Source of the DNA: Terriglobia bacterium
GTDB taxonomy: Bacteria; Acidobacteriota; Terriglobia; Terriglobales; Acidobacteriaceae
DNA: 32,456 nt
Direction of reading: 5' to 3'
NCBI GenBank assembly: GCA_020073105.1
Contig: JAIQFW010000021.1
Location: 1-32,456 of the forward strand
The notes beneath the pieces are model-generated. The model was not told the DNA's origin, searched no databases, and was given only the letters and a program-made list of their open reading frames with translations. Below, piece by piece: positions 3,551 through 24,690 of this stretch (position 1 is the stretch's first letter; every line of letters begins with the position of its first letter). A program made the translations under genes and the position numbers.

Positions 3551-3775
3551 GCACATGAAGGACTACAGCAGTGACTGACTGTGTTCCTGCACCCCATCTG
3601 CCAGGAGCTGTCGTTGTCTAAGGTTTTATCTATTAGCGGCTTGGGATTTCCACGGTACACGCTTCAGCGCGGAAATATGGAAATCCGGAATCGGCCTCGC
3701 ACTGTTATCCGTAAACTCATACCGGGACTTTCGGAAGAATTCCCACCTTGGAAAACCCGGCCTCGCCCTTCCACC

Positions 3776-3988: not shown

Positions 3989-4266
3989 AGGGGCCGCATC
4001 TCACCGCAGTGGAAGGTGCGGCTGACTAAGGGTGGCAGCGGGGGGATGGTGTTGGAATTTGTTGGCGCCAGAATTCAGGTTCAAACTGAGCGATGGGGGC
4101 AAGAGTCAATTCCGAGATGGCCAGCCTCTGATATTTTCGTCTTATGTTCTCCTAAGCGAGCACACAAGATCGTTGGGTACGGCGGACGGGCAAGCAAGTC
4201 TGGCGGGCGCTGTACAAATCAGCACCGTTCGTATACAAATAGCGGAAATCCTGCGCCCTTCGCAGG
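3989..4266. other. Non-coding stretch upstream of the molybdenum hydroxylase operon
   Basis: No convincing gene is seen here. The stretch must hold the operon promoter unless that lies further upstream. Two similar words, GTACAAAT near 4212 and TATACAAAT near 4232, stand out in otherwise GC-rich sequence and could be operator half-sites or a -10-like element. No good -35/-10 pair was found by eye. Confidence 0.35.
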
Positions 4267-5130
4267 GTGAGCAACCTCACCCGGGGACTCGATCGCTTGT
4301 ATATCCGGCCCAAGACTCTCGATGAAGCTGCGGTCCTGCTGGCGGGCGAGGGCGGGCAAGTCCTCTCGGGAGGCACCGATTTCTATCCCGCGCTTGGCGA
4401 CCAGTTACCGCGAGGGCGGGTAGTGGATATTTCGGGGCTGAGGGAATTGCGGGGCATTTCCGCCGACGCGGCCCATACGCGCATTGGCGGCCTGACCACC
4501 TGGAGCGAGATCATCGGGGCTCCCCTGCCCCGCGGCTTCGATGGGCTGAAGAGCGCGGCACGTGAAGTGGGTTCTGTCCAGATCCAGAACCGTGGCACCG
4601 TGGCAGGGAATCTGTGTAACGCATCACCGGCGGCAGACGGGGTGCCTCCACTTCTCGCCCTCGATGCGGAGGTGGAACTCGTCTCCCGAGTAGGCAAGCG
4701 TCGTTTACCGTTGGCCGACTTCATCGTCGGAAACCGCAAGACGGTGCGCCGGAACGATGAGTTATTAACCGCTGTGCTGGTGCCCCGCCGCCTCGACGAT
4801 GCCGCGTCCGCTTTCCTGAAACTTGGTGCGCGTCGTTATCTGGTGATTTCCATTTCGATGGTTGCAGCGGTTGTGCAACTCGATGGCTCTGGCCGTGTGG
4901 CCGAGGTCCACGTTGCGGTTGGGTCGTGCTCCGTGACTGCACGGCGCCTCTCGAAGCTCGAACGCGACTTGATCGGCGCGCCAGTCTCCGGATTGGCGAC
5001 GCGCGTAACTCCCGAATACCTCAGCCCCCTCTCCCCAATTGATGACGTCCGGGCCACGGCGCGGTATCGCCTCGATGCGTCACTGACGCTCGTGCAGCGT
5101 GCCCTGAACTACTGCGTGGGGAACAGCTGA
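4267..5130 (+). CDS. FAD-binding subunit of a molybdenum hydroxylase (CoxM/XdhB type)
   Basis: 287-aa flavoprotein of the xanthine-dehydrogenase FAD-subunit family. It would pass electrons from the Fe-S clusters of the partner encoded next to NAD or another acceptor. Visible marks are the N-terminal IRPKTLDEAAVLL, the FAD pyrophosphate loop LSGGTDFYP (about residues 35-43), and the second FAD motif GSVQIQNRGTVAGNLCNASPAAD (about 102-124), followed by a C-terminal CO_deh_flav_C region. Length matches the family. The GTG start is poorly supported by a ribosome-binding site, but the N-terminus aligns well with the family. The next gene begins one base after its stop, so the two are co-translated. 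In this setting the substrate is probably nicotinate rather than xanthine (inference). Confidence 0.9.
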   Translation: MSNLTRGLDRLYIRPKTLDEAAVLLAGEGGQVLSGGTDFYPALGDQLPRGRVVDISGLRELRGISADAAHTRIGGLTTWSEIIGAPLPRGFDGLKSAAREVGSVQIQNRGTVAGNLCNASPAADGVPPLLALDAEVELVSRVGKRRLPLADFIVGNRKTVRRNDELLTAVLVPRRLDDAASAFLKLGARRYLVISISMVAAVVQLDGSGRVAEVHVAVGSCSVTARRLSKLERDLIGAPVSGLATRVTPEYLSPLSPIDDVRATARYRLDASLTLVQRALNYCVGNS

Positions 5131-5131
5131 G

Positions 5132-7921
5132 ATGGCTACGACGCATGAGGTCCCGGTCAGAATTGGAACCGACCCCATTCCTTTCTCCGTTAACGGACGC
5201 AGGGTGACGGTGTCTTGCTCCCCGCTGCAGCGGTTGTCTCGCGTGCTGCGGGAGGACCTCGGCCTCACTGGAACCAAGGTTGGATGTGACGCGGGCGATT
5301 GTGGCGCGTGCACGGTGCTGCTCAATGGCGAACCGGTGTGCGCTTGCTTGGTCGCTGCGGGACAAGCTGAGGGCGGTGAGATCACGACTGTCGAAGGACT
5401 GTCGCAAAACTCGCCCGCCGGCGCCCGGCTCCAACAATCTTTCCTGTCCCATGGTGCGGCTCAATGTGGAGCTTGTACTCCCGGCATGCTCGTGGCTGCG
5501 ACTGCGCTGCTGGAGCGTAACCCAACGCCGAGTGACACCGACGTCATGGACGCGATTGGCGGGGTATTGTGCCGGTGCACCGGATATCGCAAGATCATTG
5601 CCGCGATTCTTGAGGCGGGTACAGCGATCTCAGCGGAGACATCACCGCAGGCCGGCGCAGCTGTGGGAAAACGCCTGGTCCGCCTGGACGGAAAACAGAA
5701 AGTCGAGGGAACAGAGATTTTCGGCGCCGACGAAACTCCCGCCGGGGCCCTGGCCGTCAGAGTTGTTCGGTGCCCGTACCATCGCGCCCGGTTTCACATC
5801 GCTGACCTAAGCGTTTTTGTCCGTGAACACCCCGGCATCCACTCGGTGTTGACGGCCACCGATGTACCGGGGAGAAACTGCTACGGCGTCATTCCTCCGT
5901 TTGCGGATCAGTCAGTGTTCGCTGAACAAGAAGCCCGGTTTCGCGGGGAAGCAGTGGCAGCGGTGGTCGGTGACGCCGAAGCGGTAGAAATGTTGAATCT
6001 CGCAGACTTTCCCATCACCTGGGAAGAGTTGCCGCCGCTCGTCGATATCGACACCGCCCTTTCCCCGGAAGCAACCAGAGTTCATGCTAACCGTCCGGGA
6101 AACGTTTTGGTGAGGGGCCGCGTGGTCCGCGGTGATGTCGAGAAAGCTCTGGCCGAGGCCGATGTAACGGTTGAAGGAGAGTACGAGACCGGCTTCGTCG
6201 AGCACGCTTACATCGAGCCCGAAGCCGGCTTCGCGCGCCGAGTCGGGGAACAAATCGAGATTCAAGCCTGTACCCAGTCACCTTACATGGACCGCTCGGA
6301 CATCGCAGCCATCCTCGGTATTGCGCCGGAGCGAGTCCGCATCATTCCCACTGCGGTGGGAGGAGGATTTGGGGCAAAACTGGATCTCTCGGTTCAACCC
6401 TTCCTGGCCTTGGCCGCGTGGCATCTGGGAAAGCCGGTCCGCATGGTGTACTCGCGTGCCGAATCCATAATCTCCACCACCAAACGTCATCCGGCGCGCA
6501 TGAGGCTTCGCGGCGGTTGCACTCGCGAGGGCAAGCTCCTGGCGCTCGACTTCGCCGCCGATTTCAACACCGGCGCTTACTCTTCGTGGGGACCCACGGT
6601 GGCAGCACGTGTTCCCGTGCATGCCTCAGGCCCCTACCGTGTACCACACTATCGCGCGCTGACCCGGGCCGTGCACACCCACCTCGTTCCCGCGGGGGCG
6701 TTTCGTGGTTTTGGCGTTCCTCAAGCGGCAATTGCTCAAGAGCAGCTCTACGATGATCTGGCAGACGCGGTGGGCATGGATCGGCTGGAGTTTCGGATTT
6801 TGAACGCACTCGACGACAACACACCCACCGTCACCGGCCAAGTGTTGGGGGAGGGTGTGGGTATCCGTGCTTGCCTGGAAGCGCTGCGGCCCCGCTGGCA
6901 GACGGCCCGCAAACAAGTTGCGGAGTTCAATTCCGCCGCGGCAGGGCCGCTCCGCCGTGGGGTCGGAGTGGCCGGCATGTGGTACGGCTGCGGCAATACC
7001 TCGCTTCCCAATCCGTCCACGGTGCGAGTGGGATTGAAGCGCGACGGCCGCATCGCGCTGCACCAGGGCGCGGTGGACATCGGGCAAGGATCGAATACCA
7101 TCGTGACCCAGATTTGTGCCGACGCGTTGGGAGCTCCTATCGACAGGTTTGACTTGCTTTCCGGAGACACGGCTATCACGCCGGATTGCGGCAAGACTTC
7201 GGCGTCTCGCCAGACCTTTGTGACCGGGAAAGCCGCACATATGGCGGGCGCGCAACTGCGACGTAAGATTCTTGAGATGGCACACGCGTGTTCCTGTGCG
7301 ACGATTGTTTTCGCCAATGGCGGTGTGACTGTCGAAGATAACGGCAGGTCGCACAAACTTTCACTCGGCGACATGCCTCTGGATGAGCACGGCTACGTCA
7401 TCACCAGCGAAGCCACGTTCGATCCGCCAACCAGCCCACTCGACGAAAACGGGCAGGGCATACCGTACGCTGTGTTCGGATTCGGCGCTCACGTGGCCGA
7501 AATCGAAGTCGACACCGAACTGGGCACTATTCGTGTTCTCAAAATCACTGCAGCTCACGATGTCGGACGCGCCATCAATCCCACCTTGATTGAAGGGCAG
7601 ATCGAAGGCGGTGTGGCCCAGGGTCTGGGAATGGCCCTGATGGAAGAGTTCTTCCCCGGCAAGGGCGAAAACCTTCACGACTACCTGATTCCCTCGGCGG
7701 GAGATATTCCTCCCGTGGAATCCATCCTCATCGAAGATCCCTCCCCGATTGGTCCGTTTGGCGCAAAGGGGATTGGAGAGCAAGCGGTGATTCCCACCGC
7801 GCCAGCAATCCTGAATGCGCTGCACGACGCCATTGGTGTTCGCCTGCGGAAAACCCCGGCTACTCCTGACCGGGTGCGGGCTGCGATTCTGGCGGCGCGG
7901 AAAGGTGGCGCGCATGGCTGA
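5132..7921 (+). CDS. Fused [2Fe-2S] and molybdopterin subunit of a xanthine-oxidase-family hydroxylase, probable nicotinate dehydrogenase
   Basis: 929-aa fusion of two normally separate subunits. Residues 1-165 carry a plant-ferredoxin cluster (C52, C57, C60, C72) and the second [2Fe-2S] site (C112, C115, C147, C149). From about residue 175 it continues into the molybdopterin-binding subunit, with VGGGFGAK (409-416), AFRGFG (523-528), GQGSNT (651-656) and GIGEQA near the C-terminus. E883 in that last motif corresponds to the catalytic base of xanthine oxidase. The enzyme class hydroxylates N-heteroaromatic rings using water. It sits between its FAD partner and a 6-hydroxynicotinate reductase homologue, which it overlaps by 8 bp. 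On that context nicotinate to 6-hydroxynicotinate is the favoured reaction; xanthine or another heterocycle is possible. Mo-cofactor chaperone genes are not in the window. Confidence 0.88.
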   Translation: MATTHEVPVRIGTDPIPFSVNGRRVTVSCSPLQRLSRVLREDLGLTGTKVGCDAGDCGACTVLLNGEPVCACLVAAGQAEGGEITTVEGLSQNSPAGARLQQSFLSHGAAQCGACTPGMLVAATALLERNPTPSDTDVMDAIGGVLCRCTGYRKIIAAILEAGTAISAETSPQAGAAVGKRLVRLDGKQKVEGTEIFGADETPAGALAVRVVRCPYHRARFHIADLSVFVREHPGIHSVLTATDVPGRNCYGVIPPFADQSVFAEQEARFRGEAVAAVVGDAEAVEMLNLADFPITWEELPPLVDIDTALSPEATRVHANRPGNVLVRGRVVRGDVEKALAEADVTVEGEYETGFVEHAYIEPEAGFARRVGEQIEIQACTQSPYMDRSDIAAILGIAPERVRIIPTAVGGGFGAKLDLSVQPFLALAAWHLGKPVRMVYSRAESIISTTKRHPARMRLRGGCTREGKLLALDFAADFNTGAYSSWGPTVAARVPVHASGPYRVPHYRALTRAVHTHLVPAGAFRGFGVPQAAIAQEQLYDDLADAVGMDRLEFRILNALDDNTPTVTGQVLGEGVGIRACLEALRPRWQTARKQVAEFNSAAAGPLRRGVGVAGMWYGCGNTSLPNPSTVRVGLKRDGRIALHQGAVDIGQGSNTIVTQICADALGAPIDRFDLLSGDTAITPDCGKTSASRQTFVTGKAAHMAGAQLRRKILEMAHACSCATIVFANGGVTVEDNGRSHKLSLGDMPLDEHGYVITSEATFDPPTSPLDENGQGIPYAVFGFGAHVAEIEVDTELGTIRVLKITAAHDVGRAINPTLIEGQIEGGVAQGLGMALMEEFFPGKGENLHDYLIPSAGDIPPVESILIEDPSPIGPFGAKGIGEQAVIPTAPAILNALHDAIGVRLRKTPATPDRVRAAILAARKGGAHG

Positions 7922-9377
7922 CGATGCCATCCGCTGCGATGCCTGCCCGGTGCTGTGCTACATCAAGCCGGGGCGAACGGGTGCGTGCGACCGTTATGGC
8001 AATCACGACGGCGAGTTGGTGCGTCTTGATCCGCACATCGTTCTCGATCGCGCGGTGTCGCGCGGAGATTCCGTCGTGCCCTTCCTGGGGCGCGACCAGG
8101 ACTGGGATGGCAAGATCGTAAGCGGCCCTGACACTTTCATCACCGCGATCGGTGCGGGCACGACCTATCCCGACTACAAGCCGGCTCCTTTCATCATTTC
8201 CTCTGAAGTCCAAGGTGTGGACATGGTCACGGTGGTGACCGAGGGGATCTTCAGCTACTGCGGTGTGAAACTCAAAATCGACACCGACCGCCATCTCGGG
8301 CCGGAGACTAATGCAGTTCGGGCCAAGGGAGAGCAAGTCGGCCACGTCACCACAGGCGAGTACGGCTCGCAGATGCTCTCCCTCGGCGGGGTCCGCCATC
8401 TGACCGGCGGAAGCAGAAAGGAAGGCACGCTTACTTGCGACACGCTGCTCGACCTCTGCAATGGCAAGGCAGTGGAACTCACGATTGACGACGGGGCCAC
8501 CGTCATTGTTCAGGCCGGCAAAGCACCGGTGGTGGATGGAGCGCATGAAGAACGCATGCGCGTGGGCTGCGGTTCTGCGACCATCGGTATGTTTGCCAAA
8601 CAGTGGTTCCAGAAGGTGGACGAGGTCGTCGTGGTGGATGACCACATCACCGGCGTTCTCTCGGAACACCAGGCGGGCAAGCTTTTGGGCGTTCCTGAGA
8701 CCGGCATCAAGATGAAAGGACGCCGCTCCACGCCCGGACGCTACTTCCAGGTGGCCGAGCCGGGCACGGCATGGGGAGCGACGAATATTCAGGACCCTCT
8801 GTCGATTCTGAAAGCGTTCAATCCCAAAAAGGCCTGGCCCGGACTTCGCTTGCTCATGGTCAGCACTACCGGGGAAAACTACGCGTACTTTGAGTTGGAT
8901 GAACATCTGAAACCGATTGAGAAGAATCTGCCTGGCTCACTGCAGGAATCCGTGGCCCGTATCAAGGAAAATTGTGAGCCTGCGCTGTGCACAGTCCTCT
9001 TTATGGGCGGTGCCGGGGGGTCGCTGCGCGCGGGTGTCACGGAGAATCCCGTCCGCCTGACGCATTCGGTGCGAGACGCTCTGACCCGCGTTACCTGTGG
9101 CGGGGCGCCTGTGTATGTCTGGCCCGGAGGCGGGATTACGTTTATGGTGGACGTCACCCTCATGCCGGCGAACGCATTTGGATATGTGCCGACCCCTGCG
9201 CTGGTGGCTCCCATCGAGTTCACGCTCACACTGTCCGACTATGCCGCGCTCGGTGGCTACATGGACCAGGTTCGCTCGCTGCAGTCCATCATGGCGGACG
9301 ATCGCCGGCGTCACCTCTCCGCGCGAGAGAGCAATCCGTGGCCGCTTTCTTCGGCCAAGGACACGAGGCACAAATGA
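7914..9377 (+). CDS. hnr: 6-hydroxynicotinate reductase-type iron-sulfur protein
   Basis: 487-aa protein of the family annotated as 6-hydroxynicotinate reductase, which in Eubacterium barkeri reduces 6-hydroxynicotinate to 1,4,5,6-tetrahydro-6-oxonicotinate. The N-terminus has a cysteine array C8-x2-C11-x3-C15-x9-C25 followed by DRYGN, suited to an Fe-S cluster. More cysteines occur at 116, 175, 182, 219, 354, 359 and 395. The E. barkeri enzyme is known to hold a covalent flavin, one [2Fe-2S] and two [4Fe-4S] clusters. Here a GSAT tetrapeptide (220-223) is a possible flavin attachment site. The ATG at 7914 was chosen because AAAGGTGG precedes it and the Cys motif follows at once. It overlaps both neighbours, and its stop forms ATGA with the next gene. 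Assignment rests on remembered family features and context. Confidence 0.72.
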   Translation: MADDAIRCDACPVLCYIKPGRTGACDRYGNHDGELVRLDPHIVLDRAVSRGDSVVPFLGRDQDWDGKIVSGPDTFITAIGAGTTYPDYKPAPFIISSEVQGVDMVTVVTEGIFSYCGVKLKIDTDRHLGPETNAVRAKGEQVGHVTTGEYGSQMLSLGGVRHLTGGSRKEGTLTCDTLLDLCNGKAVELTIDDGATVIVQAGKAPVVDGAHEERMRVGCGSATIGMFAKQWFQKVDEVVVVDDHITGVLSEHQAGKLLGVPETGIKMKGRRSTPGRYFQVAEPGTAWGATNIQDPLSILKAFNPKKAWPGLRLLMVSTTGENYAYFELDEHLKPIEKNLPGSLQESVARIKENCEPALCTVLFMGGAGGSLRAGVTENPVRLTHSVRDALTRVTCGGAPVYVWPGGGITFMVDVTLMPANAFGYVPTPALVAPIEFTLTLSDYAALGGYMDQVRSLQSIMADDRRRHLSARESNPWPLSSAKDTRHK

Positions 9378-10264
9378 GAGAGCGTGCCCAGATCGGCTAC
9401 TTGCCTGACGGCCGCAGGCTGCACCTGCACGATGGGCCGATTGATTTGATCGTTGAAGCCTTCGGGTCGGCTAGCGAGGTCGAGTGCGCATATCGCGCGG
9501 CAGCAAAGCGGTTCGTGACCGTTCTTGACGAACTGTGCGGCGAGCTTGCATTTCTGCGCCAGCCTACCCGCGACGACGGGCCCTGGCCCACAGGCATGGT
9601 TGCGCGCAGGATGGTTGGGGCGGTGCAACCCTATGCTTCGAGGACATTCATCACTCCCATGGCCGCCGTAGCCGGTGCGGTTGCGGAGGAAATCTTAGAA
9701 GCTATGACCTCGACGGCTGTGCTCGCGAAGGCTTACGTGAACGATGGCGGCGACATTGCGCTGCATCTGGCGCCGGGGGAGCATTTTGTTATCGGCATGG
9801 TCGAGAGGCCGGACCGTCGGTCGCTGTTCGGCACCGCTTCTCTGCATTCGGACCAGCCGGTTCGTGGCATCGCCACCAGCGGCTGGCGCGGCCGCAGTTT
9901 TTCTCTTGGCATCGCCGACGCTGTCACCGTGTTAGCTGCTACTGCCGCTCAGGCCGATGCGGCGGCTACCATCATCGCCAATGCTGTTAATCTTCCCGGA
10001 CATCCCAGCATCAAGCGGGTTCCGGCGCGCGAATTCGCTCCGGACAGCGATCTTGGGGATCGGCTGGTGACGCACGATGTCGGGGCACTCTCCGACAAGG
10101 ATGTCGAGGTTGCTCTGCGGGCGGGAGTGAATGTCGCTGACTCACTCATGTTGGAGGGGCTGATTCACGCAGCAGCCCTGCATCTGCGAGGGGAGACGAG
10201 AATCGTGGGTGGCAGTTGTTTGCCGGCCCTTCAAGCAGAAGCCAGGAGACTTGTTCATGCCTGA
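9374..10264 (+). CDS. UPF0280 family protein, ApbE superfamily; candidate flavin transferase
   Basis: 296-aa UPF0280 (COG2122) protein, a functionally uncharacterised branch of the ApbE superfamily. ApbE proteins attach FMN from FAD to Ser/Thr of partner proteins. Several ApbE-like signatures remain: VNDGGD (122-127, compare VNLGGD), ATSG (167-170), and QADAAATII (193-201), which keeps the metal-ligand Asp195 and Thr199 spacing of the ApbE ADALATAL motif. The usual His-x-Asp-Pro-x-Thr-Gly block is not obvious. The start at 9374 overlaps the upstream reductase stop as ATGA. Because the E. barkeri reductase carries covalent flavin, a role in flavinylating that neighbour is an attractive inference. 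Nothing in the sequence proves activity. No signal peptide is visible, so it should be cytoplasmic. Confidence 0.8.
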   Translation: MRERAQIGYLPDGRRLHLHDGPIDLIVEAFGSASEVECAYRAAAKRFVTVLDELCGELAFLRQPTRDDGPWPTGMVARRMVGAVQPYASRTFITPMAAVAGAVAEEILEAMTSTAVLAKAYVNDGGDIALHLAPGEHFVIGMVERPDRRSLFGTASLHSDQPVRGIATSGWRGRSFSLGIADAVTVLAATAAQADAAATIIANAVNLPGHPSIKRVPAREFAPDSDLGDRLVTHDVGALSDKDVEVALRAGVNVADSLMLEGLIHAAALHLRGETRIVGGSCLPALQAEARRLVHA

Positions 10265-10838
10265 GGTTCGGGTTCGAAAGAAGCTCATCACCGTGGAAGA
10301 AATTCTTCACGAAGGAGGCCCGGCTGCTGCAACGCCTCTGCGTCGCGCGGCGGCGCTGGTTGTCATTCACAATCCCTTCTCGGGCCGGTACGTCGAGCAG
10401 ATCGAGAGCTTTATGGACGACCTCAAGCCGCTCGGCCTCGAAATGGCGAAGTCTCTGGTCGCTGCCTTGGGCGGCGATCCAAAAATTATTGAAGGTTACG
10501 GCAAGGGAGCCATTGTCGGATCAGCGGGCGAGATCGAGCACGGCGCGCTTTGGCATGTTCCCGGAGGCTACGCCATGAGAGAGGTGCTCGGCGCCAAGGC
10601 GATCGTGGCCTCGACCAAGAAAGTCGGCGGCCCGGGGACCCGGCTCGATGTGCCCATCACCCATGTCAACGCCTCTTACGTTCGCAGCCACTTCGACGCC
10701 ATGGAAGTGGGCATCACCGATGCCCCACGAGCCGATGAGATTCTGCTTGCGCTGGTGATGACCACCGGTCCCCGGGTTCACGCACGCGTCGGCGGCTTGA
10801 AAGCATCAGAGATTAAAGGAGAAGACGGACTGCGATGA
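10257..10838 (+). CDS. Amino acid synthesis family protein (PF06684), copy 1
   Basis: 193-aa member of PF06684 (formerly DUF1185), a family with a solved structure but no settled function despite its name. Marks include VVIHNPFSGRYVEQIESF near the N-terminus, GYGKGAIVGSAGEIEHGALWH in the middle and the C-terminal VGGLKASEIKGEDGLR. The ATG at 10257 was chosen over an upstream frame because CAGGAG lies just before it and the length then matches the next paralogue (194 aa). It overlaps the UPF0280 stop by 8 bp and the next gene by 4 bp. Families UPF0280, PF06684 and the Hnr-type reductase tend, from memory, to cluster together, so a role in the same ring-reduction or ring-opening steps is inferred. 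Confidence 0.85.
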   Translation: MPEVRVRKKLITVEEILHEGGPAAATPLRRAAALVVIHNPFSGRYVEQIESFMDDLKPLGLEMAKSLVAALGGDPKIIEGYGKGAIVGSAGEIEHGALWHVPGGYAMREVLGAKAIVASTKKVGGPGTRLDVPITHVNASYVRSHFDAMEVGITDAPRADEILLALVMTTGPRVHARVGGLKASEIKGEDGLR

Positions 10839-11419
10839 AAGCCCGAATCCGCAAGCTCGCGACCTTTGTCGAAGAAACCTGCAACGAGATGGGGCGGGCC
10901 ATCAATCCGCCCGCGCGGCGGGCGGCGGCAGTCGCTGTGATCGAGAATCCTTGCGCCGGAAAGTACGTCGAGGACTTGTCGGAACTGATGGCGATTGGAG
11001 AAGAACTGGGAGAGTTGCTCACGCAAAGGGCGGTCGCCGCGCTCGGCATTCCGGGTCCCTCCGCCGAGAGCTACGGCAAGGCTGCCGCCGTGGGCGAGAA
11101 CGGCGAAATCGAGCACGCCGCCGCGATCCTACATCCCAAGCTGGGTACACCTGTGCGGAAAGTCCTGGGCAAAGGCGCTGCCCTCATTCCCTCGTCCAAG
11201 AAACGTGGCGGCATGGGCGTGGTTCTGGACATCCCACTCGGGCACAAGGACGCGGCCTTTGTGCGCAGTCACTTTGACGGCATGGAAGTCCGCATCAACG
11301 ATGCTCCCCGTGCTAACGAAATCATGGTGGCGATCGCCATCACCGATAGCGGCCGCCCTCTCCCTCGCGTAGGTGGGCTGACCAAGGATCAGATCAAGGG
11401 GGAGGACGGGTTGCGATAG
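10835..11419 (+). CDS. Amino acid synthesis family protein (PF06684), copy 2
   Basis: 194-aa paralogue of the preceding gene, starting in an ATGA overlap with it. The two share the frame of the family: VIENPCAGKYVEDL, SYGKAAAVGENGEIEHAAA, SSKKRGGMGVVLDIPLGH, VRSHFDGMEV and the same C-terminal GGLTKDQIKGEDGLR. They differ through most intervening positions, so this is an old duplication rather than a recent one. Tandem translationally coupled copies suggest a hetero-oligomer. Function is unknown; an isomerase, hydratase or accessory role in nicotinate breakdown is only a guess from position. It closes the overlapping part of the operon; 60 bp separate it from the amidohydrolase gene. Confidence 0.85.
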   Translation: MKARIRKLATFVEETCNEMGRAINPPARRAAAVAVIENPCAGKYVEDLSELMAIGEELGELLTQRAVAALGIPGPSAESYGKAAAVGENGEIEHAAAILHPKLGTPVRKVLGKGAALIPSSKKRGGMGVVLDIPLGHKDAAFVRSHFDGMEVRINDAPRANEIMVAIAITDSGRPLPRVGGLTKDQIKGEDGLR

Positions 11420-11479
11420 GCGGAAGCGTGGGGCCCAGCATTTAGAATGGATCGCGGCTCCGGCCGCTCGGGGTAATAA

Positions 11480-12880
11480 ATGACTTCTTGTCGATCTCTC
11501 TTGCTACTGGTCATTTTTCTTCCGGCTTCTCTTTCGTCTCAAGCGACCAAAGACAAAGCTGACCTGATCGTCACCGGCGGCACCGTGGTCACCATGGACG
11601 GCGCGGGAACCATTTACGACGACGGAGGCATTGTGGTGAGAGGTGACACGATCATCGCTGTCGCTCCGCGCGCCGAGGTCGCCGCCAGGTACCAGGCCCC
11701 GCAAACCATCGACGCCACCGGCAAGCTGGTCCTGCCCGGATTCGTCAACGGGCACACCCATGTGCCCATGACTCTGTTCCGCGGCATCCACGACGATGTG
11801 ACGCTGAACGATTGGCTCTACAAGTACATCTTTCCCGCGGAAGCGAAGAATGTAAATGAGGAATTCGTCCGCTGGGGGACGCGCCTGGCGGCGGCCGAAC
11901 AAATCCGTTCCGGTGTGACCACCTTCGCCGACATGTACTACTTCGAAGACGCGGTTGCCGAGGAAACCAAGGCGGCGGGAATGCGCGGTGTGCTGGGGGA
12001 AACGTTCATCGATTTTCCTGCACCCGACAATAAGACCGAAGCCGAGATGCTCGCCTACACCGAGAACTTCCTGAAGAGATGGCAGGGCGATCCATTGATC
12101 CACGCGGCGGCCGCCCCTCATTCCATCTATACGTGTTCCCTGAAGACTCTTCAGGATTCTTCGGCATTGGCTCGGCGATATCATGCGCCGATCTTGATTC
12201 ACGTCGCGGAAATGAAGAAAGAATGGGCGGACAGCGAAAAGCAGCATGGCATGTCGCCAGTACAGTACTTGGACAAGATCGGCGTACTCGGGCCTGACAC
12301 CATTGCGGCACACTGCATCTTCGTGGACGAGGCTGACCGCAAGACTCTGGCACAAAAGCAGGTTGGTTGCGTCCACAATCCGTCGAGCAACATGATGATC
12401 GCCAGCGGTGTGTCGCCGGTGCCCGAACTGCGAGCGGCCGGAGTCGCCCTTGGACTCGGCACCGACGGGCCTGCCGGCAGCAACAACGATCTGGACCTGA
12501 TGGAAGAGATCGACCTGGCAGCAAAGCTCGCCAAGATCACGAAAATGGATCCGCTGGCGCTGAACGCCAAAGCGGTGGTCGAGATGGCAACCATCGATGG
12601 CGCAAGAGCACTGCACCTGGACAAAGAGATCGGATCACTGGAGCCAGGCAAGAAGGCCGATTTGATCCTCATCAGCTTGGATGCGCCGAACGCCGTCCCA
12701 ATGTACGACGTTTATGCGCAGTTGGCGTACGCGCTCAAGGCCCACGATGTAGAAACTGTCGTAATTGGCGGGCGGATTGTAATGCGCGATCACAAGCTGG
12801 TGACGATCAACGAAGAAGCGGCCATTGCAAAAGCGCGGGAGTACAAGAGGACAATCGCCAATTCGCTCGGCCTGCCCTAG
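11480..12880 (+). CDS. Exported amidohydrolase, MTA/SAH deaminase-like
   Basis: 466-aa metal-dependent amidohydrolase most like the 5'-methylthioadenosine/S-adenosylhomocysteine deaminase branch (TRZ/ATZ subgroup). Metal and catalytic residues are in place: H92-T-H94, H241 in LIHVAEMKKE, H278 in AAHCIF, and D329 in GTDGPAGSNND. The N-terminus (residues 1-22, a positively charged start and the hydrophobic run LLLLVIFLPASLSS) looks like a Sec signal peptide, unusual for nucleoside deaminases, which normally act in the cytoplasm. The substrate could be an aminated heterocycle or nucleoside in the periplasm. It may be read through from the upstream operon, 60 bp away, or have its own start. GGGGTAATAA precedes the ATG, giving a modest ribosome-binding site. 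Confidence 0.85.
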   Translation: MTSCRSLLLLVIFLPASLSSQATKDKADLIVTGGTVVTMDGAGTIYDDGGIVVRGDTIIAVAPRAEVAARYQAPQTIDATGKLVLPGFVNGHTHVPMTLFRGIHDDVTLNDWLYKYIFPAEAKNVNEEFVRWGTRLAAAEQIRSGVTTFADMYYFEDAVAEETKAAGMRGVLGETFIDFPAPDNKTEAEMLAYTENFLKRWQGDPLIHAAAAPHSIYTCSLKTLQDSSALARRYHAPILIHVAEMKKEWADSEKQHGMSPVQYLDKIGVLGPDTIAAHCIFVDEADRKTLAQKQVGCVHNPSSNMMIASGVSPVPELRAAGVALGLGTDGPAGSNNDLDLMEEIDLAAKLAKITKMDPLALNAKAVVEMATIDGARALHLDKEIGSLEPGKKADLILISLDAPNAVPMYDVYAQLAYALKAHDVETVVIGGRIVMRDHKLVTINEEAAIAKAREYKRTIANSLGLP

Positions 12881-12897
12881 CCGTCAGAGCAGCCGAG

Positions 12898-15303
12898 TCA
12901 ATGCTTTGCCGGGGCGGGGACGCCCGCGCCTACACTGTGAGCCGCCACCGTCACCACATCGCGGCCTGACTTCTTCGACTGATAGAGACACCGGTCCGCA
13001 ACCCTGAGCAACTCGTCCGACGTCAGCCCGTGTTCCGGGAAGGTGGCGATGCCAATAGACACTGTGACTGTGTCCAGAGCCTGTCCGTTGTATCGCAATT
13101 TCAGTTGTTTCACTTCTTCCCGCAGATGATTCGCGCGTGCAACTGCGTGCTGCGCTGCAGACTCAGGCAAAATGATGGCAAACTCTTCGCCACCGAACCG
13201 GCAGATTATGTCATCGGAGCGAAAGAAATTACGGAACAACTCTGCCACGGAACGTAGTACCAAGTCTCCCGCATCATGGCCGAAGGTGTCATTGAACTTC
13301 TTGAAATGATCGAGATCAAGGAAAAGAACGGAAACCGGATGCTTCCTGCGGGTGGCGCGCTGCAACTCCCGCTCCAGCGACTCTTCCATAAAGCGCCGGT
13401 TGAATAGGCCGGTCAGCGGATCGCGAATCGACAGATCACGCAGCGCCTCGCGCAGGCGCAAGCTGGCGAGCGAGAGAGCAACCTGTCCAGCAGCCGTCAT
13501 TGCCAGTCGTTGCGTGGAATCCATCCGTTCCTCAGTCCACGGGGTCGTGCTCCCACCCCCGGAACCAGCAAACTCAAGCAGAAACACTCCCAGCGTGTCG
13601 CCCTGACCCACCATAGGAAGACACAGGTACCTCCCCCCGGCCTTGCCCATCAGGTGGGAACAGGAGATGCTTGCTTCGTGGGACTCGCTCCAATGCGGCT
13701 GGCCCCGCCTAAGGGCCCAGCATGCGTCAGGAGTGTACTGCGGCTCGGAGACACTGGGCTGGCCCCAGTGGACCGCTGCTTCGACCAGGTTCCGTGAGGA
13801 CTTGAATAAATACAGGACTCCCGATGCCGCCCCGGGGAAGAGGCGTTGCGCGAAGCGGCAGACTACAGCACAAGCTTCCTTGACGGTTCCGCAACAGTCC
13901 AGCAGGCTGCCCATCTCATTCAGCAGCGTCATTTGGCTGGTGCGCAGTTCCAACTCGCTCACCAACTGGTTGAGTGATTTCGCATGTTGGCGTTCTGCTT
14001 CGGCCGCTTTGACTTGTTCCGAAATATCCTGGTAGATCGTATACGCACCCTGTACCTGTCCATCGACCATCAGGGGCACGGCGTGCATTTCCAGGTCCAG
14101 GACCGTTCCATCCTTCCGCCTGCGCTTCACGTTCTCGTGCAGAGTCTGTCCTGCAAGGGCCCGCGAAGTTGCAAGTACCGCGCCGTCCAGCAAACCTTCG
14201 GGCGACAACAAGCGGTCAGGATCGCTCCCCGCAAGCTCACGTTGATCGTAGAGAAACAGCCTCTCCAGCGCCGGGTTGGTGAGTTCAACCCGGCCCTGAC
14301 CATCCAGAACCACAATCCCCAGCGGGCTGTTCTCAATCAACGAGTTCAAGTAGAAAGTACGTTCGTGCAGTTCAAGCCCCATGCGATGCCGCTCGGTCAC
14401 CTCCGAGCCCACGATGAGACCTACGGCAGAAACCACCAGCATGAACAGTCCAACCTTAGACAGCACGGCGGGCGTGGGTGGGAAGATGTGCATCGCCACT
14501 ACGATGCCGAAGTTCAACGCCAGGACTCCGGTTACCACCCGCCGGATCCCCTGCCGCATGGCGATCCATATAATAGGGACAAAACCAATGTAAAAGGGTC
14601 GATTGGGACGTCCAAACATGACCCAGAGCACGCCGATCAATGCTGCAGCTTGTCCCACAGCTTCCAACCAGGCGGCAGCATGCTCCGGGTAAGTCTTCCT
14701 CCGCAGATTCCTTGCTAGTGTGGGGCCCGAGACTGAAGCTGACAGTTGCCTTCGGACCCATGGGAGCACATGCACCAGGAGAAACGGCGCAATTCCCAAT
14801 AGGCCGATCGTGTCCCCGAAGAACCACCCTACCGCTGAAGCCCAAAACGCACTCCACTGAATCGAATGATCGGCGACCAGGCAGAGTACGCCAATCGCAG
14901 TGGCTACCATCGCCGCTGCGACCGTAACGAATACGTAGCGAACAACATCCCGGCGCCGTCGCAGCCCCAGATCGATGGAAAGCGGCCCACGCAAGACGTA
15001 GGCGGCTGCGGCGTAACAGATGGCAATCCCCGCCGCACCCATCGTCCCACCGAATGCAGCGATTGGCTGGTGGTAGATCCATGTGCCTGCAAGCGTGTCG
15101 GCGAAACAGACCAAAAAAGCGTACCAGGGGCTGATGCCCAACAGAACGGCTAGAACCAGCCCGGTGGCCGGATACCAAGCGGTAAAACCTAGATGAGATA
15201 GAAGTATGACTTCAGGCCGATTGAGCAGGAGGTACAGCAGCAGGAAAGCGAAGGAGAGAAGAAAGTGGCGAACAATCAGGCGCTGCGACGGCTTGGATAA
15301 CAT
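12898..15303 (-). CDS. Membrane-bound diguanylate cyclase, MASE1-PAS-GAF-GGDEF
   Basis: About 801 aa. Residues ~5-305 form a MASE1 sensor with many hydrophobic helices, followed by a PAS domain (~320-430), a short linker helix, a GAF domain (~455-620) and a C-terminal GGDEF domain. The catalytic motif GGEEF is intact, so it should make cyclic di-GMP. An RSDD sequence exactly five residues before it is a proper RxxD inhibitory site, predicting product feedback. DPLTGLFNRRF marks the domain start. The start at 15303 gives a family-like N-terminus (SQRLIVRHFLLSF) but has no clear ribosome-binding site; a GTG at 15447 would add 48 non-conserved residues. It lies between the two halves of the nicotinate gene set and is convergent with the amidohydrolase gene, 17 bp apart. 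Confidence 0.9.
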   Translation of the reverse strand: MLSKPSQRLIVRHFLLSFAFLLLYLLLNRPEVILLSHLGFTAWYPATGLVLAVLLGISPWYAFLVCFADTLAGTWIYHQPIAAFGGTMGAAGIAICYAAAAYVLRGPLSIDLGLRRRRDVVRYVFVTVAAAMVATAIGVLCLVADHSIQWSAFWASAVGWFFGDTIGLLGIAPFLLVHVLPWVRRQLSASVSGPTLARNLRRKTYPEHAAAWLEAVGQAAALIGVLWVMFGRPNRPFYIGFVPIIWIAMRQGIRRVVTGVLALNFGIVVAMHIFPPTPAVLSKVGLFMLVVSAVGLIVGSEVTERHRMGLELHERTFYLNSLIENSPLGIVVLDGQGRVELTNPALERLFLYDQRELAGSDPDRLLSPEGLLDGAVLATSRALAGQTLHENVKRRRKDGTVLDLEMHAVPLMVDGQVQGAYTIYQDISEQVKAAEAERQHAKSLNQLVSELELRTSQMTLLNEMGSLLDCCGTVKEACAVVCRFAQRLFPGAASGVLYLFKSSRNLVEAAVHWGQPSVSEPQYTPDACWALRRGQPHWSESHEASISCSHLMGKAGGRYLCLPMVGQGDTLGVFLLEFAGSGGGSTTPWTEERMDSTQRLAMTAAGQVALSLASLRLREALRDLSIRDPLTGLFNRRFMEESLERELQRATRRKHPVSVLFLDLDHFKKFNDTFGHDAGDLVLRSVAELFRNFFRSDDIICRFGGEEFAIILPESAAQHAVARANHLREEVKQLKLRYNGQALDTVTVSIGIATFPEHGLTSDELLRVADRCLYQSKKSGRDVVTVAAHSVGAGVPAPAKH

Positions 15304-15336
15304 ACTGGTGCCCGCTTCGTGTGCGTGAGGATTGCC

Positions 15337-15355
15337 CGCGACTAGTCGAGTCGCG
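15337..15355 (-). promoter_or_regulatory. Hairpin in the leader of the diguanylate cyclase gene
   Basis: CGCGACT and AGTCGCG form a perfect seven-base-pair stem around a five-base loop, 34 bp upstream of the chosen start. It overlaps a second palindrome, CGACTAGTCG. It may be an operator or a leader structure. If the longer GTG start is real, it would lie inside the coding region. Confidence 0.3.
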
Positions 15356-15505
15356 CCCCCAACCGCCAACCCAAAATCGCTATTGGCCCAACTTGCTGTA
15401 CACAAGTCTATTTGAGGAAGATTCGTTCTGAACCTGGCGCAAATCACCTTGGTAACGTGACTCCCGTAGCAGGTTGCACGTTCGGCTGGCGCCGGGGCCC
15501 TGCAC

Positions 15506-16708
15506 TCAGCCTGCCATAACCTCGGGGACCTTGGTCGCAGGTGGCGTGTTCCGGCTCCTCAGAGCACTGACAACTCCGTCGATGACGACCATGCCGATGC
15601 CCGGCAAATCGCCCTTTTGCACACTGTCTAACAGGGTCTTGCCGGCAGAATGTTGGGCCTTGTCCATGAGGACGAAAGACGCCTCTCGACCCGGTGCGAT
15701 CAACCCGCACTCAAGATTACGCATTCTGGCGGTGTTCCCGGTTGCGAAACAGATCGCGATTTCTGCAGGAATCTCGCCCAGCGAGGACAGCATAGAGATC
15801 ACTCGGATGATCCCCAGCGGCTGCACCCCGGAACCGGCAGGGGAATCTGTGCCCAGGATGAGCCGGCTCAGGCGTTTGAGTTCCTTCGCTGTGCGCATCG
15901 TCAACAGTGCAGCCCGCTCATTTCCGTTATGAACGATCTCCAGGGCCCGGGAGGAGCGTTCACACAGGGCCACGATCTGGTCATCGGGAAGCGCGGTGTG
16001 GCCGCCATTGATATGGCCGACGACGTCTGCATCGGTTTCGAGCACCATGTCCTTGTCAATAAGGCTGGAACCGGGAATCGATGGCCCTCCGGTGTGGATC
16101 GTGCTCTGAATGCCGTATTTCCGCGCCCAGGCGACCATCTGCTTGGCAGTCTTTCCGTCCTTTACACTGCCCAGTCCCACTTCCCCCAGGATCTTCACTC
16201 CAGCGGCAGCCAGTTCTTTGAAGTCGTCTTCGCCCATGCCGTGTTCGATCACCGGAGCCCCGGCGTAGATCTTCACTCCACCGGGACGAAACCCCTGGAA
16301 CGTGCGCTGAGCAGTGATTGCCATCGCTTTCAAGCCGATGATGTCCTTCGGCCGGCCTGGGGTGTGGACCTCGCCCGCCGAAATCATCGTAGTGACCCCG
16401 CCGTGCAGACAGCTGTCGATCCAGCCGACTTGATTTTGCCGGGGTGTCCAGTCTCCGCACACGGGATGTACGTGGCTGTCGATCAACCCGGGCGCCAGTA
16501 CCGTTCCTTTGGCATCAATCGTTGTGGTCGCGTGGGAAGTATCGGTGTCTTTTTCTTTGCCCACAGCCTCGATTCTGCCTGCGACCGCTACCACGGTATC
16601 GGCGTCGAGGATGGGCCGGTCAATGTCACCGCTCAGCAGAAGCCCGATGTTACGGATGACCAGCTTGGAGGGGTTGGCAGCTTTCCCAGATTCGTCATGG
16701 GCCATCAT
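15506..16708 (-). CDS. ena: Enamidase, opens 1,4,5,6-tetrahydro-6-oxonicotinate
   Basis: 400-aa amidohydrolase that resembles Eubacterium barkeri enamidase over its full length. Shared blocks recalled from that enzyme include KSRNTPPA near the C-terminus (here RSRNTPPA), HTGG.SIPGSS, HINGG.TA, GEVGLG and the PGRPKD segment after TTMISAG. The binuclear metal site is intact: H79-V-H81, E176, H205, H232 and D288. The expected reaction is hydrolysis of the cyclic enamide to ammonia and 2-formylglutarate. The start is firm: AGGGAGGAACTC precedes ATGATG. The gene is transcribed away from the nicotinamidase-like gene, with 146 bp between them. It is separated from the hydroxylase/reductase operon by the amidohydrolase and diguanylate cyclase genes. 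Other amidohydrolase activities cannot be excluded, but this match is much closer than to dihydroorotases or deaminases. Confidence 0.85.
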   Translation of the reverse strand: MMAHDESGKAANPSKLVIRNIGLLLSGDIDRPILDADTVVAVAGRIEAVGKEKDTDTSHATTTIDAKGTVLAPGLIDSHVHPVCGDWTPRQNQVGWIDSCLHGGVTTMISAGEVHTPGRPKDIIGLKAMAITAQRTFQGFRPGGVKIYAGAPVIEHGMGEDDFKELAAAGVKILGEVGLGSVKDGKTAKQMVAWARKYGIQSTIHTGGPSIPGSSLIDKDMVLETDADVVGHINGGHTALPDDQIVALCERSSRALEIVHNGNERAALLTMRTAKELKRLSRLILGTDSPAGSGVQPLGIIRVISMLSSLGEIPAEIAICFATGNTARMRNLECGLIAPGREASFVLMDKAQHSAGKTLLDSVQKGDLPGIGMVVIDGVVSALRSRNTPPATKVPEVMAG

Positions 16709-16793
16709 GAGTTCCTCCCTCGCGCCGCGGAATTGGTCTGACCAAGGGGTGCCAAAGCGATTTGCATCCGCCGTAGGCGGCCGCTCAAGCCCC

Positions 16794-16823
16794 TTGTCAG
16801 CCGTGCGGCGACAATGTTATAAG
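16794..16823 (+). promoter_or_regulatory. Sigma-70-type promoter for the nicotinamidase-like gene
   Basis: TTGTCA (16794-16799) and TATAAG (16818-16823) each match the consensus at five of six positions and are separated by 18 bp. They lie 32 bp upstream of the start codon at 16855. AGGA sits about 10 bp before that codon. The region also serves the divergent enamidase gene and could hold a shared operator. Confidence 0.55.
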
Positions 16824-16854
16824 CGCGCACAGTCCCTAACAGGAACGAGAGCAC

Positions 16855-17472
16855 ATGGTATCTCGCAACGTCATTTTTTGGGAAGTCGATACTCAGAATG
16901 ATTTCATGCTGCCCGGTGGCAAGCTCTATGTGCCGGGAGCAGAGAAACTCCTGCCAAATATTCGGCGGCTGACCGACGCAGCCCGACGGGACCTGGTGTT
17001 CCTGGTCTCGCACGGCTGCTTCCACCCTGAGAACGACCCGGAGTTTCAAACTTTTCCACCCCACTGCCTGAAAGGCACGCCTGGCGCGGAGTTTGTTCCC
17101 GAAGCCTTGACGCACCGTTTGGTGCGGGTTCCCAACCAGCCCCAGGAGAAGCTGCCCAGCGATCTCTTCAGCTACCAGCAGATCATCCTAGAGAAGCAAA
17201 CCCTGGACATCTTCGAAAGCCATCACGGTAATGCACTGGTCGAGCGGCTAGGGATGCAGCCGGAGTTCGTGGTTTTTGGCGTCGTCACCGAGTACTGTGT
17301 GCGTTGCGCTGCCAAGGGTTTGCTGCAACGGGGGCGCAAGGTGGCAGTGGTCCAAGACGCCATTGAAACCCTGAAAGCGGAGGACGGCCAGTCTGCTCTG
17401 GCCGAGTTGCAGGCGCTTGGGGCGCGGATGGTGACGACCGGACAAGCACTTGCCCAACTTACGTCAACCTAA
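16855..17472 (+). CDS. Isochorismatase-family hydrolase, nicotinamidase-like
   Basis: 205-aa cysteine hydrolase of the nicotinamidase group. The triad is recognisable: D12 in VDTQNDF, K114 in LEKQTLDIF, and C148 in GVVTEYCVRCA. The PPHCLKGTPGAEF segment (68-80) is also nicotinamidase-like, with H70 as a likely metal ligand. The metal motif, normally Asp-x-His in DWHP, reads C55-F-H57 here, so the usual Asp is replaced by Cys unless the alignment shifts. The expected reaction is nicotinamide to nicotinate and ammonia, feeding the pathway of the divergent enamidase gene. Other cysteine hydrolases of this fold act on N-carbamoylsarcosine or maleamate, the latter also from nicotinate breakdown. 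Substrate is therefore moderately supported. Confidence 0.75.
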   Translation: MVSRNVIFWEVDTQNDFMLPGGKLYVPGAEKLLPNIRRLTDAARRDLVFLVSHGCFHPENDPEFQTFPPHCLKGTPGAEFVPEALTHRLVRVPNQPQEKLPSDLFSYQQIILEKQTLDIFESHHGNALVERLGMQPEFVVFGVVTEYCVRCAAKGLLQRGRKVAVVQDAIETLKAEDGQSALAELQALGARMVTTGQALAQLTST

Positions 17473-17502: not shown

Positions 17503-18696
17503 TCAGTGCTGCGCCCGCGCCAGATCGCGAATCTGGTTCAGGTACCCAACGTACACTGGAATTGGAATGTCGGGCGAATCGCCATCATTGAGGAAGTGTT
17601 CCAGCCGGATCTCCAGCGGAATCGTGCGGATCACTTCGCCAAACCGGGGCATCTGCAGGTACTTCACTTTCCATATCTCGATCATCCGTGAGCGAAAATC
17701 CTCGCTGATGAAACCCATCCTCCGCTCACCCAGATAAACATCATCAAAGTGATGCTCGGCCAGCATTGTGCGCAGTGGATCGTTGTCCGGCGAGAAGGTG
17801 TAAACCAAGTGGAAGAGATCGGCCAGATCTCCCCACAGGACCTTCTCTTCAAATGCGCTAAAACGAAAGGGCGTACGGCGGCGCTGTTGAACCAGACGGG
17901 GGTGGTCGCCGGCCACCAGGCCATGTCGACCCAGTTCATCGCGAAACCAGTGCAGACGCTCCGCAGTTAGGTTGTGGCGCAGGAACTCAACCGCGTAAGC
18001 ATTCGGCAAATACAACTTGGGATCGGTGTCGAGACGTGCAAGCCAAGAGGTCCAGTCCCTCTGCTCCAACTGCTTAAGCAGGTCCTCTAGGTCCGCAATG
18101 GTCGTGTCGGGGTGATACTTCACCGCTTGCCAGAAATGCTCAGTGGAGTCATAAGTGGAGCCATACAGTTGGATGCCCTCCTCAATTGGGTACCAGTTAG
18201 AGAGCACCCGTCCGGGAATGGATGGAGATGCGCTCCAACAGTTCAGCGAGTGTTTCCATTTCTCCTGCACCGCTAGAAACGCCTCCGCGTAACCCTGCGG
18301 GACCACCTCCTTCACCTGCGCCAGCGCCTGCCGAAGGTCCTGGCTGGTGTGTGTTACCAACGTCTCGAGCGGGCGCTCGTCTGCCATCGAGATGATCCGG
18401 CTCTCAATTCCCCGGCGCAGCAGGTCCTTGGCCAGACTCTCGCGTTCCGCATCCGCCAAGTTCCAGCGCCGTGTCTGGGACTCGATGTAGGGGAACAACT
18501 CGGCCAGCGATTTGAATTCGATGAAGCCGTGAACGGCAAAGGTGACCGGGTGGCCCTCTTTGAGAACTACGGTGGAGGGAGTAACGATTGCTTGAAGGGG
18601 CACCCGTTCGGCCGACAGGGGCGCGCCCAGGATCGTAGTGGTGAATGTAATCTGCACGACGAACGCGAATACAGCTTGTCTCTTTCCCACGAACAC
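17503..18696 (-). CDS. Secreted protein with NADAR (YbiA)-like motifs, function unknown
   Basis: 397-aa protein with a signal peptide (hydrophobic residues about 9-25, cleavage near PLSA) and a GTG start with a weak upstream GATGAGAG. The first 150 residues are not recognised. The stretch LSNWYPIEEGIQLYGSTYDS then TEHFWQAVKYHP (about 165-196) resembles the NADAR signature (SN-phe/tyr, x-Gly-x-Tyr-x-Ser-x-Glu-His-x-x-Gln-Ala-x-Lys). Near the C-terminus KVKYLQMPRFGEVIRTIP resembles the KF-x-Q-N-P-x-L segment of the same fold, ending with GYLNQIRDLARAQ. The two blocks are separated by an unusually long insert. NADAR proteins cleave N-glycosidic bonds in riboflavin precursors or ADP-ribosylated guanine, and are cytoplasmic. 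Export would be new. It is convergent with the nicotinamidase-like gene. Confidence 0.5.
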   Translation of the reverse strand: MFVGKRQAVFAFVVQITFTTTILGAPLSAERVPLQAIVTPSTVVLKEGHPVTFAVHGFIEFKSLAELFPYIESQTRRWNLADAERESLAKDLLRRGIESRIISMADERPLETLVTHTSQDLRQALAQVKEVVPQGYAEAFLAVQEKWKHSLNCWSASPSIPGRVLSNWYPIEEGIQLYGSTYDSTEHFWQAVKYHPDTTIADLEDLLKQLEQRDWTSWLARLDTDPKLYLPNAYAVEFLRHNLTAERLHWFRDELGRHGLVAGDHPRLVQQRRRTPFRFSAFEEKVLWGDLADLFHLVYTFSPDNDPLRTMLAEHHFDDVYLGERRMGFISEDFRSRMIEIWKVKYLQMPRFGEVIRTIPLEIRLEHFLNDGDSPDIPIPVYVGYLNQIRDLARAQH

Positions 18697-21158: not shown

Positions 21159-21204
21159 AACAGCACACTCCTGCTGGCAAAACATGCATTCTATGCTATT
21201 TTCG

Positions 21205-21317: not shown

Positions 21318-21392
21318 TTCATTTAGGATTTCAGCAACGTAGTCGCAAAGCAGCCGATCTGAACGAAGCAGGGGTAGCAACAAGGAGGCACC

Positions 21393-24671: not shown

Positions 24672-24690
24672 GGTCGTGGCGGGTACGATC

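Follow-up and report, generated by a model that had tools for sequence, protein, structure and literature searches.

A gene cluster for pyridine breakdown on an acidobacterial contig raises the question of which known route of nicotinate catabolism it represents, and of where it came from. The cluster lies on contig JAIQFW010000021.1 of a Terriglobia bacterium (assembly GCA_020073105.1), of which positions 1 to 32,456 were analysed (hereafter the window). The original prediction named genes for a molybdenum hydroxylase, a 6-hydroxynicotinate reductase (Hnr), an enamidase (Ena) and a nicotinamidase-like hydrolase of the isochorismatase type, and regarded them as a plausible undescribed branch of the Eubacterium barkeri pathway in soil Acidobacteriota, in which 2-formylglutarate must go elsewhere. 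All of these genes are present, as judged from Pfam and PDB matches and, for Hnr, from identity to relatives, and the enzyme families and the order of steps were upheld. The set as a whole, however, is very probably a nicotinate catabolic cluster of the Azorhizobium/Bradyrhizobium type, proceeding through 1,4,5,6-tetrahydro-6-oxonicotinate (THON), which this Terriglobia acidobacterium gained from Alphaproteobacteria.

The cluster is real and well conserved, belongs to a known kind and would work by the expected mechanism, and it is new to Acidobacteriota as far as the literature was searched, in which no report of it from this phylum was found. Aerobic THON-type nicotinate degradation would thus be extended to abundant soil Acidobacteriota as a likely horizontal gain, and for these bacteria, which are difficult to grow in the laboratory, nicotinate use would become a trait open to testing. 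The main interest lies in the transfer and, more so, in two orphan families, UPF0280 and DUF1185 (Pfam AA_synth), which are tied to defined steps of a known pathway, so that their functions become directly testable.

Gene content and order

From 4267 to 11419 the genes overlap or nearly touch, forming a tight operon, after which comes a gene for a TRZ/ATZ-family amidohydrolase (Table 1). Besides the genes originally predicted, this region thus holds one for a UPF0280 protein, two for AA_synth proteins and the amidohydrolase gene. The loci used for comparison were plasmid loci and named loci, the latter being the best 80 of at least 290 relatives, picked by enamidase and ranked by likeness to 2VUN, the structure of E. 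barkeri enamidase; co-occurrence counts hold for that sample. E. barkeri lies outside the 80, and Bacillota relatives stand in for it. In the surveys of gene content, hydrolase residues and UPF0280 adjacency, hits were placed by tblastn, and a simple rule was applied to set their starts.

The order NdhF, NdhSL (the FAD and the fused subunit of the molybdenum hydroxylase), Hnr, UPF0280, first and second AA_synth protein, and Ena reversed recurs in 21 of 71 loci, headed each time by the FAD subunit; these are 14 of the 16 other acidobacterial loci and seven alphaproteobacterial loci. A chance assembly of unrelated genes is ruled out by this common order. The enamidase on the opposite strand, remarked on in the original prediction, is no acidobacterial peculiarity; it is the ordinary arrangement of the seven alphaproteobacterial loci. 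An open reading frame (ORF) with a GAF domain at 3581-4270 was rejected as a cluster member, as tblastn found no homologue of at least 60 bits in the other acidobacterial loci. The host assignment to an Acidobacteriota-like chromosome was borne out: a genome of the same family shares an exact 100-base stretch with a contig of Candidatus Sulfotelmatobacter (L052; Acidobacteriota, Terriglobia, Ca. Korobacteraceae).

Hnr and the origin of the cluster

Hnr matches no Pfam family above cut-off and no NCBIfam family, and in the PDB nothing scores better than E 0.45. It is identified as such because it is 42-45% identical to nine Hnr proteins encoded near enamidase genes (Bacillota, Desulfobacterota, Myxococcota) and 60-69% identical to 26 plasmid records, 17 of which are annotated as 6-hydroxynicotinate reductase; identity to the other aligned rows is 59-84%. 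The Hnr of strain SG-6C is likewise described as 42% identical to that of E. barkeri (PMC3511419). In the Hnr tree the 7914-9377 product falls inside the family, as had been expected. Its predicted structure, with a mean predicted local distance difference test score (pLDDT) of 83.3 and a predicted template modelling score (pTM) of 0.81, found no Foldseek match at E <=0.001, and the best VIA match reached Z 4.6 over 64 residues (glycine-cleavage T-protein); this lack of a clear match does not show that the fold is new.

Precedents exist for both kinds of cluster. Nicotinate supports growth of strain SG-6C, with 6-hydroxynicotinate appearing transiently, and the 2012 study of this strain describes the cluster in A. 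caulinodans, B. japonicum and R. palustris as well as in Bradyrhizobiaceae SG-6C; that of SG-6C, conserved in A. caulinodans and other Proteobacteria, covers the first three steps and also holds genes for an ABC transporter and for two proteins whose function is unknown (PMC3511419). The window shares with it the first three steps and conserved genes of unknown function. With the E. barkeri fermentation cluster, represented by its nearest relatives (L016-L019), the window has Hnr, Ena, the molybdenum hydroxylase, UPF0280 and one AA_synth protein in common, and PMC9304392 likewise groups E. barkeri with A. caulinodans. In those relatives, however, Hnr has an N-terminal 2[4Fe-4S] domain, the molybdenum hydroxylase subunits are split, and later enzymes are encoded nearby.

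The two kinds differ in the N-terminal domain of Hnr. Among 71 loci, a stretch with two ferredoxin-like Cys motifs opens Hnr in all nine anaerobe-type loci and in none of the 62 proteobacterial and acidobacterial ones, and the Hnr ORF of the window is devoid of it. The Hnr tree, of 71 rows, unites the 17 acidobacterial ones in a single clade (100/100). This clade is nested in one of 30 rows that also holds Bradyrhizobium, Dongia and further alphaproteobacteria (99/95), and that one in turn in a 42-row alphaproteobacterial clade (99/98). The Hnr tree is rooted at its midpoint, with long branches meeting at the base; L106-L132, four short loci (L005-L008) and sequences below 400 aa are not in it. 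A quick tree of Ena (81 rows) gave the same result, with 16 acidobacterial rows (99 in the Shimodaira-Hasegawa-like approximate likelihood ratio test, SH-aLRT) nested in a 45-row alphaproteobacterial clade that includes one Granulosicoccus. From the Ena tree, 20 rows of Bradyrhizobium and Burkholderiales were removed by hand as likely near-copies, judged without computed identity, as was L137, a copy of L052. Because the acidobacterial Hnr and Ena each form a single clade nested among alphaproteobacterial sequences, the cluster was likely gained horizontally from Alphaproteobacteria.

The distribution of Hnr is patchy. It was found in four of 61 genomes of relatives and in 37 of 398 genomes of the window's family, spread over 11 of 79 genera. 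In a class sample it occurred in 10 of 399 genomes, four of them from a second family; two of the ten hits are marginal (E near 1e-3, 36% over 58-77 residues). In an even sample of the phylum the window's own genome was the single positive among 396, with none in the 395 others. This would be explained most simply by a single horizontal gain, after which the cluster was patchily inherited or passed on inside Terriglobia. The rival view of a vertically old E. barkeri-type branch could draw on the three enzyme families in common, on the lack of fermentative enzymes in the cluster, and on one 3-hydroxyisobutyrate-dehydrogenase-type protein in the genome that is 36% identical to the Hgd-like neighbour of the enamidase in L019. 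The restriction of Hnr to two families of the class sample and its absence from the rest of the phylum sample speak against this view, as do the alphaproteobacterial clades and gene order and the missing N-terminal domain; an E. barkeri-type cluster was rejected on the last three grounds, and the view as a whole is highly improbable. In sequence, gene order and domain make-up, the window agrees with the aerobic Azorhizobium/Bradyrhizobium type.

Proposed pathway

Family membership, gene order, ligand conservation, tree placement and co-occurrence are direct observations; from them we infer every reaction as it would run in this bacterium, the way out for 2-formylglutarate and what UPF0280 and DUF1185 do. 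The molybdenum hydroxylase (4267-7921) would convert nicotinate to 6-hydroxynicotinate, which Hnr would reduce to THON with electrons from a separate ferredoxin/flavodoxin system. Ena would then open the ring of THON to yield 2-formylglutarate and ammonia, and 2-formylglutarate would leave via glutarate and glutaryl-CoA dehydrogenase (GCDH). Moreover, UPF0280 would attach the covalent flavin of Hnr, and DUF1185 would handle the enamine or 2-formyl dicarboxylate released by Ena.

For the first step, the FAD, Fe-S and Mo parts of a xanthine-dehydrogenase-family enzyme are all encoded in the cluster, as seen from Pfam and PDB comparison. NdhSL matches aldehyde oxidoreductase 1SIJ with 407 bits and the separate chains of nicotinate dehydrogenase 3HRD with 265, 246 and 147 bits; the enzyme is probably a nicotinate dehydrogenase. 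For the second step, the short Hnr probably draws its electrons from a separate carrier, since its own ferredoxin-like domain is missing and a gene for ferredoxin-NADP reductase (FNR) stands near many proteobacterial loci (29 of 46, against none of nine anaerobe-type and none of 16 acidobacterial loci, within the fetched stretches). For the third, the 15506-16708 product matches 2VUN with 372 bits over residues 14-397 at 46% identity, the next structure reaching 29.7 bits, and H66, H68, E163, H192, H219 and D275 (numbering of the first row), which we take to be the metal ligands of enamidase, are kept in all five aligned rows.

The exit of 2-formylglutarate may be less obscure than was thought. 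The original prediction held that it must go elsewhere, by a route not yet described, but a GCDH homologue is present in the genome. Of six acyl-CoA dehydrogenases, one (L101) was compared with PDB, where glutaryl-CoA dehydrogenases take the first nine places (444-408 bits), followed by 4W9U (403 bits) and then a drop to 228 bits. This homologue may offer the exit, and in A. caulinodans the route from THON onward is described as passing through glutarate (PMC3511419). The cluster does lack the later fermentative enzymes, as originally stated: a scan of the 20 larger window ORFs in its vicinity turned up none of the E. barkeri enzymes (Hgd, mutase, isomerase, dimethylmalate enzymes). The search of the whole genome was confined to Hgd, for which a single Hgd-like query from L019 retrieved one homologue, the 36% identical protein mentioned above.

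Several points weigh against this assignment of the cluster and its steps. The family test of Hnr was run with enamidase-adjacent stand-ins for the E. barkeri protein. The molybdenum hydroxylase reaches no NCBIfam equivalog cut-off, and the best single PDB match of its Mo subunit is an aldehyde oxidoreductase, so that nicotinate is suggested as its substrate by context. In the Ena tree, the enamidase-like L024 and L014/L030/L081, which have no Hnr nearby, sit between the aerobic clade and 2VUN (SH-aLRT 89-93). As to the expectation that the product would fall in the enamidase clade, it belongs to the Hnr-associated proteobacterial clade, but these proteins intervene before 2VUN, so that the Ena tree alone does not prove orthology with 2VUN. 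The acidobacterial loci also differ from the Azorhizobium caulinodans/SG-6C cluster, as FNR, MarR and the ABC transporter, carried by many proteobacterial loci, were detected in none of the 16 (within fetched stretches of differing ends); an isochorismatase gene and often a TRZ/ATZ amidohydrolase gene are found instead. As for the exit, the PDB comparison covers one of the six acyl-CoA dehydrogenases, all six are below cut-off in the NCBIfam Desulfo-type GCDH model, and GCDH also serves lysine and tryptophan breakdown. Because the GCDH gene stands apart from the cluster, its link to nicotinate can only be suggested.

The TRZ/ATZ amidohydrolase invites another reading, in which the cluster serves a different pyridine that enters at or beside 6-hydroxynicotinate, such as a 6-substituted nicotinate that the amidohydrolase would make available, with nicotinate as a minor substrate. 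Its gene adjoins the operon in eight of the 16 other acidobacterial loci, where it is 80-85% conserved, and the TRZ/ATZ enzyme Cch2 of SG-6C is described as feeding 6-chloronicotinate into the same pathway (PMC3511419). The other eight loci are without it, however, its N-terminus resembles a signal peptide when read by eye, and its best PDB matches are MTA/SAH-deaminase-like amidohydrolases. We consider such a pyridine improbable as the main substrate, and nicotinate remains the preferred one.

UPF0280, a candidate maturase of Hnr

UPF0280 accompanies Hnr with great constancy. Hnr or Ena served to fetch 87 loci, plasmid and named; 57 of them carry Hnr, and UPF0280 occurs in all 57. It lies directly downstream of Hnr on the same strand in 70 of 71 loci with both. 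Among the 398 family genomes, 37 have Hnr, 39 have UPF0280 and 36 have both, and in the four genomes with only one of them (G523, G478, G507, G495) the pieces all lie at contig ends. This link is new here. UPF0280 is not mentioned in the literature searched, and a search through an ApbE review (PMC12052999) turned up neither nicotinate nor UPF0280.

The family is also remotely related to ApbE flavin transferases. Its profile aligns with that of ApbE in hhalign at 92.4% (E 5.2e-7, 105 columns; 0.1% for Hnr against ApbE as negative control), the ApbE motifs GGD, TSG and ADAxxT are kept, and the protein matches PDB 2O34 (E 2.8e-7). The Hnr of E. barkeri is said, in work of Alhapel from 2006, to carry a covalent flavin. 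Because of the co-occurrence, the remote homology and this reported flavin, UPF0280 is proposed as a candidate flavin transferase that would mature Hnr. ApbE itself was rejected for this role in the present genome, which has no PF02424 match at all; of the four Hnr genomes in the set of 61, G009 has one ApbE, while none is encoded in G000 (the window's own genome), G005 or G028.

This proposal also meets objections. The UPF0280 ORF has no PF02424 match at gathering score. In ApbE, a His is described as the general base (PMC12052999); UPF0280 is without a counterpart of the His in the ApbE HxxD segment, and a [ST]GA[ST] site, the ApbE target motif, is absent from all 51 Hnr sequences. In addition, two of the 14 control genomes, those of the methanogens M. 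jannaschii and M. acetivorans, give UPF0280-like matches below cut-off (genomes not searched for Hnr). These points would suit a role other than flavin transfer, in which UPF0280 is a subunit of Hnr, hydrolyses FAD or serves Hnr as a flavin-binding chaperone, whereas the three conserved ApbE motifs and the reported covalent flavin speak for a transferase, and we regard the matter as evenly poised.

DUF1185 proteins and ring opening

An AA_synth gene is present in 56 of the 57 Hnr loci. In seven further loci the enamidase is divergent (<60% identity) and the fetched stretch lacks Hnr; four of these loci (L014, L026, L030, L048) carry AA_synth as well. Because it stands beside divergent enamidases even where Hnr is missing, DUF1185 seems tied to ring opening and not to reduction. 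The family is wide, with 388 plasmid records. Of four plasmid neighbourhoods inspected, three contain an LLM oxidoreductase, a flavin reductase, an aldehyde dehydrogenase and an alpha/beta hydrolase, and the fourth nucleoside hydrolases, an isochorismatase and MarR.

Two DUF1185 proteins have been studied elsewhere. TgnF, a homologue from trigonelline breakdown, is described as stimulating TgnE, and for HcdD no effect is described as found (PMC7913881). They share the Pfam family with the window AA_synth proteins, but ring cleavage in their pathways is oxidative. The DUF1185 fold has been described as Bacillus-chorismate-mutase-like (PMC2954203). In fold comparison, the top hits of our model came from DUF1185 itself (Z 27.1 and 25.1). 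Those that followed, with Rid, selenophosphate synthetase and chorismate mutase folds, scored Z <=7.0, a likeness that does not rise above the usual background.

DUF1185 may act on enamine or 2-formyl dicarboxylate intermediates. A broader proposal, which we put forward tentatively and hold to be rather doubtful, is that UPF0280 is a second, cytoplasmic flavin transferase acting on Hnr at a non-ApbE-like site and that DUF1185 acts like RutC on the enamidase product; enamidase, isochorismatase-type amidase and DUF1185 would then make up a module for ring opening that recurs and parallels the Rut pathway. If true, the pathway needs two protein families that have so far been unassigned.

The isochorismatase-type hydrolase

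The gene divergent from Ena was originally read as nicotinamidase-like. Membership in the isochorismatase superfamily (PF00857) stands, but a nicotinamidase is unproven, as the product scores 47.3 bits against the PncA model NF008623, whose cut-off is 174. Its gene is found beside Ena in 15 of the 16 other acidobacterial loci, the sixteenth ending at a contig end. For residue comparison we took the Asp-Lys-Cys triad and the DxH metal site of PncA as reference: the Asp, Lys and Cys columns are kept in all 16 acidobacterial sequences, and at the position of the metal Asp 13 have Cys and three have Asp.

Nicotinamide and a ring-opened amide both stay as candidate substrates. Cleavage of a ring-opened amide, in the manner of RutB, is suggested by another isochorismatase subfamily encoded just upstream of enamidase-like genes in L026, L032, L037, L048 and L062, of which a Sinorhizobium relative is closest to RutB in PDB. 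That Sinorhizobium gene adjoins two nucleoside hydrolase genes, which would fit nicotinamide riboside salvage. The window protein itself, however, has its best PDB match in the P. horikoshii pyrazinamidase/nicotinamidase (75.9 bits; next 47.2) and is the sole one of four isochorismatase proteins in the genome that matches the PncA model (for the others, among matches to E 1e-10); the other three are RutB-, BiuH- and YcaC-like at best, none over cut-off. Moreover, the E. barkeri enamidase is described as releasing ammonia by itself (PMC9304392). The chances of a ring-opened amide as substrate appear to be somewhat short of even.

In two Chloroflexota loci (L026:8736-11149 and L048:1119-3537), AA_synth, isochorismatase and enamidase-like genes stand in a row, with no Hnr in the fetched stretch. 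These rows possibly serve the ring opening of another lactam.

Cluster features and neighbouring genes

Table 1. Genes of the cluster and its immediate surroundings, in window coordinates.
Feature	Position	Strand	Evidence
FAD subunit of molybdenum hydroxylase (NdhF-like)	4267-5130	+	PF00941 139 bits, E 1.5e-40; PF03450 46 bits
Fused [2Fe-2S]/molybdopterin subunit, probable nicotinate dehydrogenase (NdhSL)	5132-7921	+	PF00111, PF01799, PF01315, PF02738, PF20256
6-Hydroxynicotinate reductase Hnr, short form without N-terminal 2[4Fe-4S] domain	7914-9377	+	Identity, tree, N-terminal motif count
UPF0280 protein, remote ApbE homologue	9374-10264	+	NF003322 408.9 bits (cut-off 290)
AA_synth/DUF1185 protein 1	10257-10838	+	PF06684 237 bits (scored on longer ORF 10209-10838)
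AA_synth/DUF1185 protein 2	10835-11419	+	PF06684 244 bits; PDB 2QTP E 1.2e-88
TRZ/ATZ-family amidohydrolase, facultative neighbour	11480-12880	+	PF01979 241 bits
MASE1-PAS-GAF-GGDEF protein, between operon and Ena	12898-15447	-	Pfam domains
Enamidase Ena (predicted ring opening of THON)	15506-16708	-	PF01979; 2VUN E 3e-110
Isochorismatase-superfamily hydrolase, divergent from Ena	16855-17472	+	PF00857 81 bits, E 1.5e-22

Beyond the hydrolase, 17503-18696 encodes a 397-aa protein with no Pfam match, which is 73% conserved beside the Hnr cluster in L144. Genes typical of nucleobase catabolism follow at 18801-25584, encoding a nucleoside hydrolase, a dihydropyrimidinase (TIGR02033 653 bits, cut-off 393), an F420-type LLM oxidoreductase (TIGR03842 over cut-off), an NCS1 permease and a CN hydrolase; in L144, nucleoside hydrolase, CN hydrolase, NCS1 and LLM genes likewise adjoin the Hnr cluster. 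A queuosine salvage protein (PF10343, 191 bits) is encoded at 25644-26963, and downstream of it, to 32033, lie genes for a TPR protein, a DUF455-like protein, a RhaT-like permease, a deoxyribose-phosphate aldolase and a ribokinase, all over cut-offs.

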